A stretch of 35,851 nucleotides of DNA from an uncultured Oscillospiraceae bacterium (GTDB lineage: Bacteria; Bacillota; Clostridia; Oscillospirales; Acutalibacteraceae), in NCBI GenBank assembly GCA_948471095.1, contig CAOKRG010000026.1, forward strand, positions 1 through 35,851, given 5' to 3'. The position numbers and the translations under genes are program-made. Of this stretch, positions 6,310 through 12,150 are shown one piece after another (positions within the stretch are counted from its first letter, which is position 1; every line of letters begins with the position of its first letter). A model generated the notes under the pieces. That model saw only the letters and a list, made by a program, of their open reading frames with translations. It made no database searches and was not told the origin of the DNA.

Positions 6310-7935
6310 TTATGGCAGCAGATAGATTACCATATCCCTGCGGCCGATGATGCTGCACTCCTCCAGGGTGTCGTAGCACAGGTCGGCGACGATGTCCCCT
6401 GCCAGGCATGCCCCGCCGGTATCCCCCGCCACGCCGTAGCCGTATACCACGCTTCCGTCCGGTGAGGCCACATACATCCGGGTCCCGTAGGGGATCACGT
6501 CCGGGTCCACCGCGATGATTCCCCGCTCCGCCGTCAGACCCACGGAGGTGGTGCCGCCGGGGATGCAGTAGGCCGTGCACTCGCCCTCCATCTTCTTGGC
6601 ATAAGGGACCTCCTGGCCCCAGGCGTCGGTAAAGGTGCCCACGCCCTCCCCGAAGCTGAAATCAAAGTTGGGCCGCCCGCCAGAGCTTCCAGCTCCAGAG
6701 CCGCCAGCCCCTGAGCCGCTCCCCGCGCTTCCAGAGGAGCTGTTGTTTCCAAAGCGGTGGCTGGTCAGGCTGCTGTCGCCGGAGCTGCCGATGACCTCCG
6801 CGTCCGCGTCAAACTCCAGCTGGGGCAGTTTTCCAACGCTCCCGGCGCTGCCCGTGCCCCCGCCGCCCGTGCTTGCGCTCCCCGTGCCCTGTACGATGAT
6901 CCGGTCAATGGGCTCCCGGGTCACCTCCTCGGAGACCAGCTTGCGGCTTTCCAGCTTTTCCTCCACATAGACCGCCCGGTATGTATAGGTCTTCTCCCCC
7001 TTGAGCCCGGCGGTCAGGGTGTTCTTCTCCCCCCGCTTCAGGTCCTTGGAGTAGGTGGTCTTGGTCTTATAGTCCAGCTCCTCGGTCTCGGTCTCCTCCT
7101 TCACGCGCACCCGGGTCACGGTGATCTCCATGCCCTCCACGGGCCGGGCGGTCCGGCGCACGTTCAGCCGGTCGTGCTCTCCCAGGCCCACGCCGCACTG
7201 CTCTAAGGCGTCCTCCACCGTAGCTGCGGAGACGGCATACTCCTTGGTCCCGCTCTTGGTGGTGACGCGGATGCGCACCGCCCGCAGCACCTCCAGCTCC
7301 ATGCCGTCCGTCAGGGGTTGGTCCAGGCTGTAGTTGCAGCACTCGTCCTTGGCCAGCTTCACACCGGCCTCCTTTAGGGCGTCCGCCACGCTGCCGCCCA
7401 GCATTTCCAGGGTCTGGGTCTTCCCATTGGCCGTAACCCGCACGGTGCACAGCCGGCTGACCTCCACGGTCAAGGCGGCTCCGATCACGGTCTCCGGGCT
7501 GGGGCTGATCCGGTCCCCGGCCTCCACGGAGACTCCATTGGCCGCCAAAGCCTCCCCCACGGTGTCGCCCTTATAGGCGGTCAGCTGGGTGGTCTCCCCG
7601 GCCTGGCGCAGGTAGAGGTCCACGCCCCGGCGCAGGGTGATGGTGTCCGTGTTCCAGTCGGCCAGCGCCTCGTCCAATGCCCCCAGAGGGGCCAGGCCCA
7701 GGCCCTCCGCCTTCTTTAAGATCGCGTCCACGTCCCGCCGCTCCGTGCGGACGGAATAGCTCTGCCCGCCGTCCACCACCCGGGCCCGAACGCCGGAAAT
7801 GAGGGACGCCGCCGCCATGCCGGTAAACAGAACAAACAGCGCCGCCCCCGCCGCTGCCAGCAGGAACAAAAGCTTCCGCCTGCTCCGGGGCCTTCCATAT
7901 TGATTCCAAGCGCGCACAAAAGCCCACCTTTCCAT
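6310..7935 (-). CDS. YabE-like cell-wall protein: DUF348 repeats, G5 domain, 3D lytic domain
   Basis: 541 residues. Order: short basic N-terminus, one membrane anchor or uncleaved signal (KLLFLLAAAGAALFVLFTG, about 22-40), three DUF348 ubiquitin-like repeats (about 115-290; phrases GDTVGEALAANGV, GGSVADALKEAGV, ATVEDALEQCGV), a G5 domain (about 295-365), a Gly/Ser linker (about 375-440), and a C-terminal 3D domain (about 455-541). The 3D domain shows GECTAYC, VDPDVIPYGTRMYV and AGDTGG...GDIVADLCYD, which supply the three conserved Asp of MltA-type lytic transglycosylase folds. Such proteins remodel peptidoglycan in Firmicutes (YabE/Rpf-like). The start is uncertain: ATG 7935 lies only about 16 bases after a -10 and lacks a Shine-Dalgarno, while GTG 7917 has AAAGGTGGG at good spacing. 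Confidence 0.9.
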   Translation of the reverse strand: MERWAFVRAWNQYGRPRSRRKLLFLLAAAGAALFVLFTGMAAASLISGVRARVVDGGQSYSVRTERRDVDAILKKAEGLGLAPLGALDEALADWNTDTITLRRGVDLYLRQAGETTQLTAYKGDTVGEALAANGVSVEAGDRISPSPETVIGAALTVEVSRLCTVRVTANGKTQTLEMLGGSVADALKEAGVKLAKDECCNYSLDQPLTDGMELEVLRAVRIRVTTKSGTKEYAVSAATVEDALEQCGVGLGEHDRLNVRRTARPVEGMEITVTRVRVKEETETEELDYKTKTTYSKDLKRGEKNTLTAGLKGEKTYTYRAVYVEEKLESRKLVSEEVTREPIDRIIVQGTGSASTGGGGTGSAGSVGKLPQLEFDADAEVIGSSGDSSLTSHRFGNNSSSGSAGSGSGAGGSGAGSSGGRPNFDFSFGEGVGTFTDAWGQEVPYAKKMEGECTAYCIPGGTTSVGLTAERGIIAVDPDVIPYGTRMYVASPDGSVVYGYGVAGDTGGACLAGDIVADLCYDTLEECSIIGRRDMVIYLLP

Positions 7936-7951
7936 CTTGTTTCTGCTATAC

Positions 7952-7980
7952 AGTATACTCAAAACCCGGGGAGAAGTCAA
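7952..7980 (-). promoter_or_regulatory. Sigma-A promoter of the 3D/G5 protein gene
   Basis: Minus strand TTGACT (7975-7980), 17 bases, TATACT (7952-7957). ATG 7935 would give a leader of only about nine bases, which bears on the start choice of that gene. Confidence 0.75.
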
Positions 7981-8017
7981 GCTGGGAAGATTTGGGAGAG
8001 CACCCAGGCGCACATTT

Positions 8018-8098
8018 CGAGGGAAGCCCGCTGAACGCAACAGCAAAAGTTTCGTCCTTCTCGACTGCCTAATACTTCTATAGCAACGCTCTTCGAAC
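8018..8098 (-). repeat. Mosaic hairpin repeat, partial copy 5
   Basis: On the minus strand it reads CGTTGCTATAGAAGTATTA, then GGCAGTCGAGAAGGACGAAA, then CTTTTGCTGTTGCG. The first block matches 24533-24551 and the second matches the end of the copy at 24520-24735. The CCTCCGGCGG hairpin core is missing, so this is a deletion variant. Confidence 0.7.
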
Positions 8099-8142
8099 AT
8101 TCCCAGATTTGGAGGGAATGGCCAAAGCGAGGAGTTAATAAG

Positions 8143-8414: not shown

Positions 8415-11189
8415 TTAGGACTCCCGCTTCCGGGCGGTCAGGGCCACGCCGGTCAGGCCAGCGGCGGCCGCCAGGGCCATCAGGAACCACAGGCCCGCCA
8501 TGTCGCCGGTCTTGGGCACGTCGGCCAGGGGTGCCTCCGGGTCGTCGATGGGCTCCTCGGGCTCGCCGGGGGCCAGGGGCACGTCCGGCTCCTCAATGGG
8601 CTCATCCGGAATGTCCGGAGTGGGATCCAGCGGCACGTCCGGCTCGTCGATGGGCTCGTCGGGCTCATCCGGACCGGGGTCCAGGGGCACGTCAGGCTCA
8701 TCAATGGGCTCATCGGGCTCGTCCGGAATGTCCGGGGTGGGGGTAGGCGTGGGGTCCGGGCTCTCGGAGGGAGTAGGAGTAGGAGTGGGGGTGGGATCGG
8801 GAGTCTCCTCCGGAGCGCGCACGTTGACGAAATTGACCGTCAGCTTGCCATCGCCCAGGCTGCCCAGGTACTTGGCAACCTCGCCGTACTCGTTCTCGGT
8901 TTCAGCCAGGACCTTTTCCACATCGACCAAAGTAGGATCGCAGACGATGTAGATGGTGGTGTCCTGGTCAAAGCCCTCGGGCGGAACAACCTCCTGCAGG
9001 TAGTAGAGAATGTCCTTCATCAGGGCCTTCTCCACGTCCAGCACGCCATTTTGGGTGTAGATGGTGGCATTGGGGTCGGACACAAAGGTGAAGGCGTTCT
9101 TCTCCTCATCGAACATGCAGTACATGTTGGTCTGGGTTTCCTCATCCTTGTACCAAATCTGGAAGCCGGTCTCGCTGCCGGTGATAACCTGCCCGTCCTC
9201 ATCGGTCTTGTTGATGGTCAGGTCCTCATCCCGCTGCTCCAGCTGGATGGAGTTGTACCAGGGCCATTTGGTGTCCTGCCAGTCGTTGCCCATGAGCTCG
9301 CCATCGAGGTTCATGGCCATCATAAAGGAGGTCCACGTAGCGGCCTCGGCGGAAACGCCAGCTTTCAGCAGCGCCTTGAAATAGTCGTTGGCCTGCACCC
9401 ATGCGGCGTTGTGCTGCATGTATTCGGCCAGCATCTTTTCATAGTTCTGCTTGGAGTTCCAGCTCTCGTTCTCATAAGCCCAAGAGCCATCGGCATGCTG
9501 GTACTTCTTGTCGCCAGTAGCCTCGTCAATGTCCGCCTTGTCGCCGAACACGAAGGAGATGAGGTTCTTGTAGAACTCATCATATAGGACACTGCCCATG
9601 TGGGCTTCCACAACAAATTCTTCCTTGTCAATTTTGAAGTACTTGTTGCCGCTGGTTGCGGTCTTGGAAAGCTCGGCACGCGCCTCTTCGTTCTTGGCCA
9701 CCAGGTCAGCGATATCTTTGTACGCAACGCCGGTCTTCTCCTGGTAATACTCCAGCAGATACGCGTTCATGTTCTCCTGAAGCGAATCGTTTCCATATTT
9801 GTCCAGGAGTTTCTTGATCTGTCGTTCATCGTACTTAGTCCAAGAACCGTTAAAGCGGCCCCAGTCGTCAATACCAGCCTCTTTCAGCAGTTCTTGAATG
9901 GGTTCCGCTCTCACCGTTACATGATAGTTCGCCTTGTCCACATACTCTTCCGGCAGTTCCTGGCCGTCAAAGCCAGTGGTGCCGCTGCCGTTTCCTTCCG
10001 TCCATCCGGGGGTAGCCAGAATAAAGCTGCCGTCCTTGTAGCGGTAGGTGTGGCCGGACTTGCTCACGATGTCGAACTGGAACTTGAGGATGTCGCCGGG
10101 CTGGAGCACATCGGACTCGGACTGGTGAATCCAGCGGTCCTCGATGGCATCAAACTGAGACTTGAGGCTGTCCGGCAGAACCGGCTTATCAGCCATCGTG
10201 CCGTATTTTTTTCGAAACAAATCAGCAATCTCATCATCGGTCATGCCGGTGAGATCCTCGCCAAAATTGGGCAAAATCTGCTTAATCTCCGCAATATCGC
10301 TCTCATAAGCAGCAAGGCCTTTTTTATAAGCCTTATAGTCCTCATTATCAGCCAGTTTGGCCTCTAACTCGGCTTTCTCTTTCTCAAGCTGAACCTTGCC
10401 GGTCTGCGCATAAGCGTTCAGCATGCCAAGCGCAATGGTCAGGTCAATGGTCTGGTCGCCCTCGGCCTCTTCGTCTATGACATAGGTAATCTTGTAGGTG
10501 TCGTTTTCCTTGTCATAGAAGATATCCCAGTTGCTCTCGCCCTCAGTGGTAACTGTGGAGCTGCCGGTGTCAATGGTAGAGCCTCCGCCGGGCGTTACGT
10601 CCGGGGTCTCCGTGACATCGGGAGTCTCGGTGACATCGGGCTCCCCCTGCTCCGGGGACGGAGTGGGAACATATAGAGGCTCGTCAGGATTGACTTCCTG
10701 GTTCTCGGGTTTGTCTTCTCCCGGCGCGGGGGTAGCGTCCGGCCCGGGGGTGGCAAAACCCTCGCCGGGCTTTACGCCAACCGTGCCGCTCTGGCCGGGG
10801 CGCTCAACGCCCGCCAGCTCCTCGTCCGTCAAGGGCGCGGGGGTGGGCGTGTTCTCGGGCGCGGGGGTGGGGACGGTTTCCAGCTTTTCCGCGTCGTCCT
10901 TGCCAACGGCGTCTTCGGTGGTAACGGTGTTGCCGTCCTCATCAGCGGTTTCGTCTTCCTCGGGGGCATCGGCATCCTCGGGAGTTTCGTCCACGGGGGC
11001 TCCGTCCTCCCCGCCGGCCAGGGCCATAAGGTCGCCAACGGTCGTCGCGGTCACCTGCGGGCCTTCCGGGGCCGGGGCCTCGGGGGCGTCTTCGGCAAAG
11101 GCGGCCATGGGCAGCATGCCCACGCACAGCATGAGCGCCAGCGCCAGGGCCAGCACGCGCTGATGGAATTTGTTTGTACGTTTTTTCAT
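8415..11189 (-). CDS. Sortase-anchored surface adhesin with SpaA/CnaB-like domain
   Basis: 924 residues. Signal peptide (about 1-32, ending PMAAFAED). Then an acidic Pro/Thr/Glu-rich stalk to about residue 215, with repeated PDVTETPDVTETPDV. A large globular region follows (about 220-650) with a helical stretch (QLEKEKAELEAKLADNEDY) and no recognised fold. A SpaA/CnaB-like beta domain lies at about 655-790, with INKTD at the start and LQEVVPPEGF at the end, the usual Lys and Glu of an intramolecular isopeptide bond. Then a Pro/Asp/Glu repeat stalk (about 795-886), the sorting signal VPKTGD, a hydrophobic helix, and basic ARKRES. Sortase should link it to peptidoglycan; no sortase is in the window. 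ATG 11189 has AGAGAGG upstream. The leader contains two c-di-GMP-I aptamers, so surface attachment is probably c-di-GMP controlled. Confidence 0.92.
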   Translation of the reverse strand: MKKRTNKFHQRVLALALALMLCVGMLPMAAFAEDAPEAPAPEGPQVTATTVGDLMALAGGEDGAPVDETPEDADAPEEDETADEDGNTVTTEDAVGKDDAEKLETVPTPAPENTPTPAPLTDEELAGVERPGQSGTVGVKPGEGFATPGPDATPAPGEDKPENQEVNPDEPLYVPTPSPEQGEPDVTETPDVTETPDVTPGGGSTIDTGSSTVTTEGESNWDIFYDKENDTYKITYVIDEEAEGDQTIDLTIALGMLNAYAQTGKVQLEKEKAELEAKLADNEDYKAYKKGLAAYESDIAEIKQILPNFGEDLTGMTDDEIADLFRKKYGTMADKPVLPDSLKSQFDAIEDRWIHQSESDVLQPGDILKFQFDIVSKSGHTYRYKDGSFILATPGWTEGNGSGTTGFDGQELPEEYVDKANYHVTVRAEPIQELLKEAGIDDWGRFNGSWTKYDERQIKKLLDKYGNDSLQENMNAYLLEYYQEKTGVAYKDIADLVAKNEEARAELSKTATSGNKYFKIDKEEFVVEAHMGSVLYDEFYKNLISFVFGDKADIDEATGDKKYQHADGSWAYENESWNSKQNYEKMLAEYMQHNAAWVQANDYFKALLKAGVSAEAATWTSFMMAMNLDGELMGNDWQDTKWPWYNSIQLEQRDEDLTINKTDEDGQVITGSETGFQIWYKDEETQTNMYCMFDEEKNAFTFVSDPNATIYTQNGVLDVEKALMKDILYYLQEVVPPEGFDQDTTIYIVCDPTLVDVEKVLAETENEYGEVAKYLGSLGDGKLTVNFVNVRAPEETPDPTPTPTPTPSESPDPTPTPTPDIPDEPDEPIDEPDVPLDPGPDEPDEPIDEPDVPLDPTPDIPDEPIEEPDVPLAPGEPEEPIDDPEAPLADVPKTGDMAGLWFLMALAAAAGLTGVALTARKRES
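8530..8730 (-). repeat. Tandem Pro/Asp/Glu-coding repeats in the adhesin stalk
   Basis: Imperfect tandem units of about 16-20 codons encoding variants of DEPIDEPDVPLDP-GPDEP, at least four times, immediately before the VPKTGD sorting signal. It is wall-spanning in position and likely to vary in copy number between strains. Confidence 0.85.
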
Positions 11190-11196
11190 GGTTAAT

Positions 11197-11233
11197 ACCT
11201 CTCTTTGCTAGTTTGTCGGATGCAAAGTATCCG
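11197..11233 (-). promoter_or_regulatory. Putative expression platform and ribosome binding site of the adhesin
   Basis: On the minus strand a hairpin CGGAT-ACTTTGC-ATCCG (11217-11233) starts within the 3' strand of aptamer 2. Its loop CTTTGC can pair with GCAAAG (11203-11208), which abuts the Shine-Dalgarno AGAGAGG. No T-run follows, so translational control is more likely than termination. The pairing is visible; the switching logic is inferred. Confidence 0.5.
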
Positions 11234-11308
11234 GCGGCTGGGCTGCCATAGCGCATTGCGCCTTAGGCCCCTTGCTTTGTGTCCCGGCCTTTCAGGCGGT
11301 TTACTCAG
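11229..11308 (-). promoter_or_regulatory. Cyclic di-GMP-I (GEMM-I) riboswitch aptamer 2 (downstream of the pair)
   Basis: Minus-strand order matches the GEMM-I core: TAAACC (11298-11303), hairpin GCCT-GAAA-GGCC, GGGACACAAAGC (11274-11285), GGGGCCTAAGG ending at 11261, small hairpin GGCGC-AAT-GCGCT, then GGCAGCC and CAGCCGCC (to 11233). The first G of the usual GCAAACC is changed (GTAAACC), as is one base of GACGCAAAGC (GACACAAAGC), so ligand affinity may differ from aptamer 1. It ends about 40 bases before the adhesin start codon. Confidence 0.82.
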
Positions 11309-11311
11309 TGT

Positions 11312-11405
11312 TCCAGCAGCCGGGCTAACATAGCATCGTACTGATACCTTAGTTCCCATAGCTTTGCGGTCCCATCGTTTCCGATGGTTTGCCCGTGCGC
11401 CTCGC
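11312..11405 (-). promoter_or_regulatory. Cyclic di-GMP-I (GEMM-I) riboswitch aptamer 1 (upstream of the pair)
   Basis: Minus-strand sequence shows GGGCAAACC (GCAAACC at 11386-11392), hairpin CCATCG-GAAA-CGATGG with the GAAA tetraloop, GGGACCGCAAAGC (11361-11373), TATGGGAACTAAGG, a short arm, then TGTTAGCCCGGCTGC (ends 11316). This is the full conserved order of the c-di-GMP-I aptamer, including the tetraloop and the distal GCC..GGCTGC receptor side. It is separated from aptamer 2 by only a few bases. Confidence 0.9.
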
Positions 11406-11497
11406 TTCGCCCGCTTTCCGGCGCGTTCCGCGGGCGGCTCTTACGGCGGCATCCCTCCTAGTTTCATTGCAAGCACCCCCTCCTTCCCTCTTGGTTT

Positions 11498-11965
11498 TTA
11501 TGAATCAGCCCGGGGCCGTTTCTCCGGCTCTCTGGCGTATTCATCGATGAATTTGTCGTGCAGCTCGCTTTCCGCCCGCTTCCGGGCCTCCACCGCGTCC
11601 TCAAACCGGGCGTAGCTGCCCAAATAGAGGCGCTGTCCCTTGAAGCAGATGGCCGCGCGCCACAGCCCCTTGGTGGGGCGCCAGTCCACCCCCGGCACGC
11701 CGCTGGTGTTGTTCTTTCGGGCCTGCTTGGCGGCCTTGAGCATCTCCACGCAGGTGCCGTCGATGTAGGCGGGGCCCTTTCCCCGGCATCCGCAGCTTTT
11801 GGTGTGCCCGCTGCGCAGGTGGCAGGTCTTCACGACCGCCTCCCGCCCGCAGTCGCACCGGCACAGCCAGGCCGTGCGCCCGCCCACGTTCTCCGCCGGG
11901 CCGGTTACCGTCAGCGAACCGTACCGCTGCCCGGTCAAGTCCATCTTATGCCGCGCCCCGCCCAT
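11498..11965 (-). CDS. Zinc-binding/AP2-like DNA-binding protein of phage type
   Basis: 155 residues. The N-terminal part begins DLTGQRYGSLTVTG and carries a compact Cys cluster (WLCRCDCGREAVVKTC...SCGC, about residues 34-60), typical of phage-encoded HNH/AP2 proteins. The C-terminal part (about 85-135: NNTSGVPGVDWRPTKGLWRA, then RLYLGSYARFEDAVEARKRA) is an AP2/ERF-like three-strand DNA-binding domain. No nuclease active-site motif is visible, so it is probably a bare DNA-binding protein, perhaps a relic of a homing-type element. ATG 11965 has GGAGG eight bases upstream. It is co-directional with, and just upstream of, the riboswitch-adhesin unit, with no terminator seen between them. Target unknown. 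Confidence 0.75.
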   Translation of the reverse strand: MGGARHKMDLTGQRYGSLTVTGPAENVGGRTAWLCRCDCGREAVVKTCHLRSGHTKSCGCRGKGPAYIDGTCVEMLKAAKQARKNNTSGVPGVDWRPTKGLWRAAICFKGQRLYLGSYARFEDAVEARKRAESELHDKFIDEYAREPEKRPRADS

Positions 11966-12150
11966 GCGTCATTCCTCCGTTGCAAAAAAGCGTACTTATT
12001 TGTAAACGAATGGTAGGGATTTTTTACCGGCAGATTCACGATTTTTTCCCTGGAAGGTATTGCCATTTGGGAGACAATGTGGTAAAATCGAACTGGAAAA
12101 GGGAAGAGTTTCCCCTTACAGTTAAGTACACATTCCTGCATTTTCCACGC

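Follow-up and report, generated by a model that had tools for sequence, protein, structure and literature searches.

The window analysed here, a stretch of 35,851 nt, carries on its minus strand two c-di-GMP-I (GEMM-I) aptamers, a single platform sequence, a Shine-Dalgarno sequence and the gene of a 924-aa secreted protein with a PKTG-type C-terminal anchor (ORF, 8415..11189). A cmscan search of the whole window returned exactly two matches to the Rfam model RF01051 above the gathering cut-off of 35 bits, namely aptamer 1 (11312..11403, minus strand; 61.5 bits, E 7.6e-10) and aptamer 2 (11230..11310, minus strand; 58.2 bits, E 4.8e-9, or 63.3 bits when taken as 11315-11230). Our own model R3 gave 83.6 and 75.7 bits, respectively, aptamer 2 being part of the R3 training set. 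A permissive scan of 11170-11520, taken up to E 1, yielded the same two RF01051 matches without a hit to any further Rfam family. An earlier sequence-only reading had proposed two complete tandem GEMM-I aptamers on the minus strand, and the Infernal check bore this out with two significant minus-strand matches in the 11150-11500 region; all of the core motifs quoted in that reading are present in the sequence. It described an array of switches; the data point to adjacent aptamers on one common platform. The A at position 20 of aptamer 2, the pseudoknot-like platform downstream and the leader ORF upstream, all described below, go beyond what it reported.

The core from G21 to C92 spans 11392-11316 in aptamer 1 and 11304-11234 in aptamer 2, and the ligand-contact nucleotide C92 is present in both (C at 11316 and 11234). 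The other ligand-contact nucleotide, position 20, is G in aptamer 1 (11393) and A in aptamer 2 (11305). From C92 of aptamer 1 to G21 of aptamer 2 there is an 11-nt linker (11305..11315, minus strand), the last base of which is position 20 of aptamer 2. An expression platform would not fit into these 11 nt. In 10800-12000, terminator-like sites were found on the plus strand only (four) and none on the minus strand, and a promoter scan of the sequence found no promoter. Adjacent aptamers have been defined as homologous aptamers less than 20 nt apart with one platform after the last (PMC12452182), and this is the arrangement at the locus, where a platform follows aptamer 2 only; the spacing and the terminator result do not match a pseudo-cooperative tandem, in which each aptamer has its own expression platform. 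Aptamer 2 has A20 and, within stem P2, a C.C mismatch, which could be read as signs that it has decayed, no longer binds ligand and serves only to space the platform structurally. We regard this as unlikely: aptamer 2 keeps C92, the GAAA loop and a U22-A45 compensation and scores 58-63 bits, and among eight arrays whose last aptamer starts with GTAAAC, six have A20 and two (L045, L046) have G20. Decay was set aside because A20 recurs in this subclass.

The platform begins at C93 of aptamer 2 and reads CGGAU-A-CUUUGC-AUCCG, followed by 8 nt, GCAAAG and the Shine-Dalgarno sequence AGAGG. On the minus strand, the 5′ strand of stem S1 (CGGAU, 11229..11233) starts directly 3′ of the ligand-contact C92; the 5′ strand of stem S2 (CUUUGC, 11222..11227), together with the next four bases, forms the strand complementary to the aptamer core; the 3′ strand of S1 (AUCCG) lies at 11217..11221 and that of S2 (GCAAAG) at 11203..11208. 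The Shine-Dalgarno sequence of the regulated gene (11198..11202, minus strand; read from the sequence) adjoins S2, which flanks but does not cover it, and AGG occurs no more than 8 nt after GCAAAG in all 84 distinct loci of the set described below. The pairs CGGAU/AUCCG and CUUUGC/GCAAAG cross as in an H-type pseudoknot, and we infer that the platform is one, with an S1 of 5 bp, an L1 of 1-2 nt, an S2 of 6 bp, an L2 of 0 and an L3 of 5-14 nt. Translational preQ1-I riboswitches also contain a small H-type pseudoknot, with its final strand next to the Shine-Dalgarno sequence. In those the pseudoknot itself is the aptamer, whereas the one proposed here would be a platform distinct from the c-di-GMP aptamers that precede it.

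Covariation was examined in platform alignment A8, whose 40 rows comprise 14 exact platforms and 26 variants (the near copies L266 and L267 were excluded). The inner pair of S1 is U-A in 16 rows, U-G in 14, C-G in six, A-U in two and other in two, and the rest of S1 hardly varies. The result showed eight double-changed cells in S1, a number reached by 0/500 shuffles, and a single double-changed pair, which was reached by 173/500. No covariation was found for S2 in A8, where identical bases are kept in 38-39 of the 40 rows; the S2 pairing therefore rests on complementarity, position and the near-invariance of both strands. Vienna, which cannot model pseudoknots, only partly yielded the stems in 69 loci (mean probability 0.14 for S1 and 0.38 for S2); the predicted fold of the window forms the CUUUGC/GCAAAG helix. 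The platform is damaged in L259 and L269, and S1 is broken in L268.

Between the platform strand CUUUGCAUCC and the aptamer core GGACGCAAAG, 9/10 positions are complementary; for the G form of the strand, CUUUGCGUCC, 10/10 are. Scored against one typed core consensus, uniform random 10-mers reach 9/10 with p 0.0017 (about 0.16%) and 10/10 with p 6.5e-5 (0.0065%). The anti-core table leaves out 53 aptamers that did not fit the core regular expression. An anti-core helix is used in the predicted folds of L044, L071, L121 and L133 and is absent from that of the window; nor is it universal, as 20 of 50 doublets have no upstream site with a 9/10 match. The reading that CUUUGC pairs solely with the core of the last aptamer was dropped, because one subclass (seven last aptamers) has an ACAAAG core yet retains CUUUGC.

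The protein encoded at 11189-8415 has a signal peptide and a VPKTGD...RKRES tail, both recognized by eye, and its match to NCBIfam LPXTG_double (39.5 bits) is below the cut-off of 48. It had been called a PKTG-anchored SpaA-domain adhesin; the PKTG tail is there, while support for the SpaA domain is weak, with a Pfam SpaA score of 18.6 bits against a cut-off of 23.1 (E 0.0021). One sortase match was found in the genome, and with the RF01051 pair and the PKTG-tailed ORF this agrees with the proposal of tandem c-di-GMP-I aptamers ahead of a sortase-type surface protein. For P0001, a search of genome contigs found no relatives, and no solved structure matched at E 0.01. A downstream ORF could be identified at 80 of 85 loci; under a lenient rule, every one of these ORFs encodes a hydrophobic stretch near the N-terminus, and 23 of the 45 complete downstream proteins have P.TG in the tail. 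Pfam searches of seven downstream proteins (that of L102 partial) gave FctA in two and SLH and Cna_B in one; the other four had no match above cut-off. In this genome, the array-controlled proteins encoded at window 8415-11189 and L046:7943-10861 have identical last 38 residues, a common end that suggests gene conversion or recent duplication.

Upstream of the array, the minus strand carries a leader ORF, MKLGGMPP-stop (11441..11467), which contains a diprolyl motif and has an in-frame GTG three codons upstream as a possible alternative start. It is preceded by the Shine-Dalgarno-like AAGGAGGGGG (11476..11485, minus strand), which was read from the sequence and also found by script. Between the leader ORF and the array, a GC hairpin, CGCCCGC/GCGGGCG (11408..11436, minus strand), was noted by eye; in the window this segment folds no better than its own shuffles (z -0.4), and across arrays z was below -2 in 14/46, with a mean of -1.28. 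A diprolyl leader, i.e. a start preceded by a Shine-Dalgarno sequence with an early in-frame diproline, was found in 41, 46 or 48 of 76 arrays, depending on the rule, the sample comprising arrays with at least 150 nt upstream and L137 having been dropped. For the rule giving 46/76, shuffles gave 3.8 (maximum 8 in 100 runs) and the region 210-400 nt upstream gave 1/71. PPW occurs in 22 leaders versus 0.02 in shuffles; the residue after the diproline is W in 23, G in eight, V in five, D in four and another in eight, and third codon positions vary. Diprolyl motifs have been described as sites of ribosome stalling when Trp, Asp, Asn or Gly comes next (PMC4176338), and EF-P is present in the genome. 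The diprolyl leader ORF probably adds a ribosome-stalling input.

The recurrence of the platform was determined by an exact-pattern scan of genome contigs with CGGATNCTTTGCATCCGN{3,25}GCAAAG, in which 80 of 83 matching stretches were taken in. The 80 listed loci hold 82 matches, 80 of them in GEMM-I context, one of which is the locus of genome G002, a member of the genus. Seventy-nine of these 80 follow a visible GEMM-I 3′ end, and the other, L144, has only 3 nt of upstream sequence. The matches in an alphaproteobacterial metagenome-assembled genome (L099) and in Caulobacterales (L120) have no GEMM-I context and look like chance matches. By a manual count of accession prefixes, the carriers are 52 assemblies. 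Their titles place most of them in Clostridia (Oscillospiraceae, Lachnospiraceae and others), and some say just "bacterium"; named strains include Oscillibacter sp. 1-3, Flintibacter muris DSM 110149 and Schaedlerella arabinosiphila DSM 106076, and several record titles presumably denote mouse-gut catalogues or mouse isolates. With the four loci of this genome (G000) and that of G002 there are 85 loci, or 84 distinct ones, as L048 and L137 are one contig; this set was chosen by exact sequence.

Aptamers were counted with R3, a trimmed model trained on 64 aptamers, nearly all from the arrays themselves, which replaced R1 since R1 missed neighbours in abutting arrays. Among the 84 distinct loci, the number of aptamers chained to a platform was two in 50, three in 20, four in three, five in two, one in four and zero in five, so that 75/84 have 2-5 detected aptamers. 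Three of the five loci without chained aptamers begin less than 40 nt from a contig edge, and the aptamers of the other two (L101, L147) failed the chaining rule. Linkers are mostly 2-15 nt, with 95 of 107 measured at 15 nt or less. Nine of the 12 longer ones hide an aptamer 3′ end plus a short linker, a long P3 having been truncated by the model, and the really long ones are in L045 (81 nt), L046 (32 nt) and L087 (52 nt). Five-aptamer arrays with linkers down to 2 nt occur in L079 and L089, and four aptamers in L090, L078 and L126. The aptamer helices of the arrays covary (alignment A4: 216 double-changed cells versus 54.8 in shuffles, with 94.7% paired). Taken together, the array type looks like a little-known multi-sensor switch that recurs in dozens of related genomes.

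This genome has nine RF01051 matches: a triple on contig C3, doubles on C4 and C26 (the window) and one each on C46 and C33. The partner of the C46 aptamer is cut by the contig end and is seen as a truncated match, and the C33 aptamer lies near a contig end. The platform is present in four copies, on C3, C4, C26 and C46. The triple array (L044:8303-8593, minus strand) has two 12-nt linkers, TAATTATAAAAG and TGATTATAATTA. With strict filters, model R2 run on 394 genomes of the order gave the four copies of this genome at 70-73 bits and one match each in 27 other genomes, all at 30.0 bits or less. Within the genus, 3/29 genomes have platform matches, clear in G000 and G002 and marginal in G021 (25.1 bits); a clear platform in only 2/29 suggests gain or loss by transfer. 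On 26 carrier genomes R2 gave 77 matches, 1-9 per genome. Thirty weaker R2 matches were examined, of which two (L242, L243) match the exact pattern; L243 is probably the same locus as L092, the contigs of the two being equally long.

As controls, R3 was applied to 41 GEMM-I loci of the family, giving 43 chains (L032 and L059 are one locus twice). A diprolyl leader was found in 1/39 control chains and an anti-core match of at least 9 within 150 nt in 1/43; with no such match, the platform is absent or unseen in the remaining controls, among them L063, which ends at a contig edge. Control tandem gaps are at least 61 nt in 15/16 (61-211 nt), the exception being L063 with 12 nt. Other GEMM-I loci of the family are thus mostly without the features of the compact arrays. 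Two tandem-riboswitch surveys class c-di-GMP-I tandems with separate-platform switches (PMC9481103, PMC12452182), and such tandems are common, with 347 doublets and 12 triplets (PMC9481103). It is nevertheless very improbable that the two aptamers of the window work independently of each other as ordinary tandem riboswitches, in the manner of Bacillus thuringiensis Bc3-5, given the 11 nt between them without a minus-strand terminator-like site, the short linkers of most arrays and the wide gaps of the family's other tandems.

Position 20 depends on the place of the aptamer in the array. In arrays of at least two aptamers, the first aptamer has G20 in 72 and A20 in two (n=74 readable, one cut), middle aptamers have G20 in 27 and A20 in five, and last aptamers have A20 in 42, G20 in 24 and C20 in nine, i.e. 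A or C in 51/75. A Fisher test gave p 3.6e-19, with the duplicate locus included and with related species that are not independent. A20 is also common in the control loci (7/28 singles, 7/13 readable first and 7/15 last tandem aptamers), so that it is not A20 as such but its place in the arrays that is special. Other wide-spaced tandems of the family with A20 in one or both aptamers are L052, L054-L057 and L060. In 12 distinct last linkers of 9-12 nt, a sample that leaves out the TGGA class to which the window belongs, the linker ends pair at 3.58 of four positions versus 1.99 in shuffles (0/1000 shuffles), which in that linker class points to a possible pair between A20 and the neighbour's base 93; linkers starting with A or G cannot form this pair. 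No end pairing above shuffles was found in 13 distinct non-last linkers (1.85 versus 1.73).

A20 in aptamer 2 is the only hint of the two-input switch for c-di-GMP and cGAMP that had been suggested, in which aptamer 1 (G20) would sense c-di-GMP and aptamer 2 (A20) 3′,3′-cGAMP. In a Geobacter riboswitch an A20-to-G change turned the preference from cGAMP to c-di-GMP (PMC6456294), and the frequency of A20 in last aptamers points the same way. Of the features of GEMM-Ib cGAMP switches, however, A20 is present in aptamer 2 only and a Hypr GGDEF cyclase was not found in the genome: the Hypr position of its four GGDEF domains was read by eye as D, D, D and N, with no Ser/Thr, a count from which a Hypr cyclase could be missing as the assembly is 87% complete. 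None was found either among 25 readable domains, all D, in nine carrier genomes (30 loci listed of 41 matches). The two-input reading is thus decidedly unlikely, and cGAMP as second ligand was dropped since no readable GGDEF domain has Ser/Thr at the Hypr position. We know of no cGAMP precedent for C20, and G20A alone can leave c-di-GMP binding. We would instead take a last aptamer with A20 or C20 for a c-di-GMP site that is tuned, weaker or promiscuous.

What is observed is two closely spaced aptamers followed by one platform sequence, which recurs and lies beside the Shine-Dalgarno sequence. We think it fairly probable that the locus is an adjacent-aptamer c-di-GMP-I riboswitch in which two complete aptamers, too close together to have an expression platform between them, jointly use a single one that controls translation of the secreted, wall-anchored surface protein. 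The platform strand CUUUGC(A/G)UCC could alternatively pair with the aptamer core GGAC-GCAAAG, and an occupied aptamer would hold its own core. In the model that we prefer, c-di-GMP on the aptamers would remove the competing core, the pseudoknot would form and initiation would fall. Several aptamers on one platform would give a steep response, which is plausible and fits the 2-5 aptamers per platform.

The sign of control is the weakest step of this model, and we infer off over on by little. C92 stays outside S1, which begins at C93, and in the 84 exact-pattern loci the base able to extend S1 to C92 is never G; the bound aptamer and the pseudoknot could therefore coexist, which slightly favours off. 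The absence of G is a weak point against an on switch, as G makes up just 6% of L3 bases and is found there in the variants L263 and L264. As an on switch, the same RNA would block initiation through the unliganded pseudoknot, and c-di-GMP would capture the strand with C92 and C93, so that S1 is lost and the adhesin is translated. The downstream proteins look secreted, many with a P.TG tail, and such surface-protein targets favour c-di-GMP as an on signal, contrary to the off lean. In the Geobacter pilM riboswitch, the bound aptamer and an off structure that sequesters the ligand-contact C exclude each other (PMC9262584). We hold the on switch to be a substantial possibility, somewhat short of even chances.

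A bolder reading is a three-layer device, in which a diprolyl leader with an EF-P-type stall, 2-5 fused aptamers and one core-mimicking pseudoknot act together, with physically coupled pockets and a cooperativity that is true and not just apparent. Neighbouring aptamers would share bases of linkers as short as 2 nt, position 20 of the last aptamer would lie in the linker, and the A/C20 last aptamer would be a coupling or readout unit. We advance this reading tentatively and consider it rather doubtful.

Several known systems resemble parts of the array. In the triple-tandem Bc3-5 of B. thuringiensis, several c-di-GMP-I aptamers also precede anchored surface-protein genes, and more copies give a steeper response, but each aptamer has its own terminator, whereas here the aptamers abut and the common platform has no terminator (PMC4759541). 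The tandem glycine riboswitch likewise has adjacent homologous aptamers and a single expression platform (PMC9481103); it differs in aptamer and ligand, while in the present class there are up to five aptamers, most of the last ones are changed at position 20, the platform resembles a pseudoknot and a diprolyl leader is often present. The Geobacter GEMM-Ib cGAMP riboswitches share A at position 20 of a GEMM-I aptamer (PMC6456294, PMC8835794), but here no Hypr GGDEF was found, a G20 aptamer lies in the same leader and C20 also occurs in the class. The mgtA/mgtL leader, with proline codons and EF-P, also places a proline-containing ORF before the controlled gene; its prolines are interspersed, whereas here a diprolyl motif, most often PPW, precedes the c-di-GMP array (PMC6460261). 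A compact c-di-GMP-I array with one platform was not found in the accessible text of PMC9481103 and PMC12452182 or in searches of open-licence papers. If the proposed arrangement is true, it would be a glycine-like multi-aptamer switch for c-di-GMP signalling, its natural variation in copy number would allow cooperativity between RNA pockets to be tested, and a set of Clostridia secreted surface proteins would be likely to be under second-messenger control.

Two genes flank the riboswitch and the adhesin gene. The product of the gene 3′ of the adhesin (6310-8100, minus strand) contains DUF348 repeats together with a G5 domain and a 3D domain. Directly upstream of the array lies the gene of P0003, an AP2-domain-like protein (11498-11965, minus strand; Pfam AP2 below cut-off). 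P0003 matches occur upstream on the same strand in 23/84 arrays including the window, ending 78-276 nt before the first aptamer, and those at the 22 other arrays have 59-73% identity.
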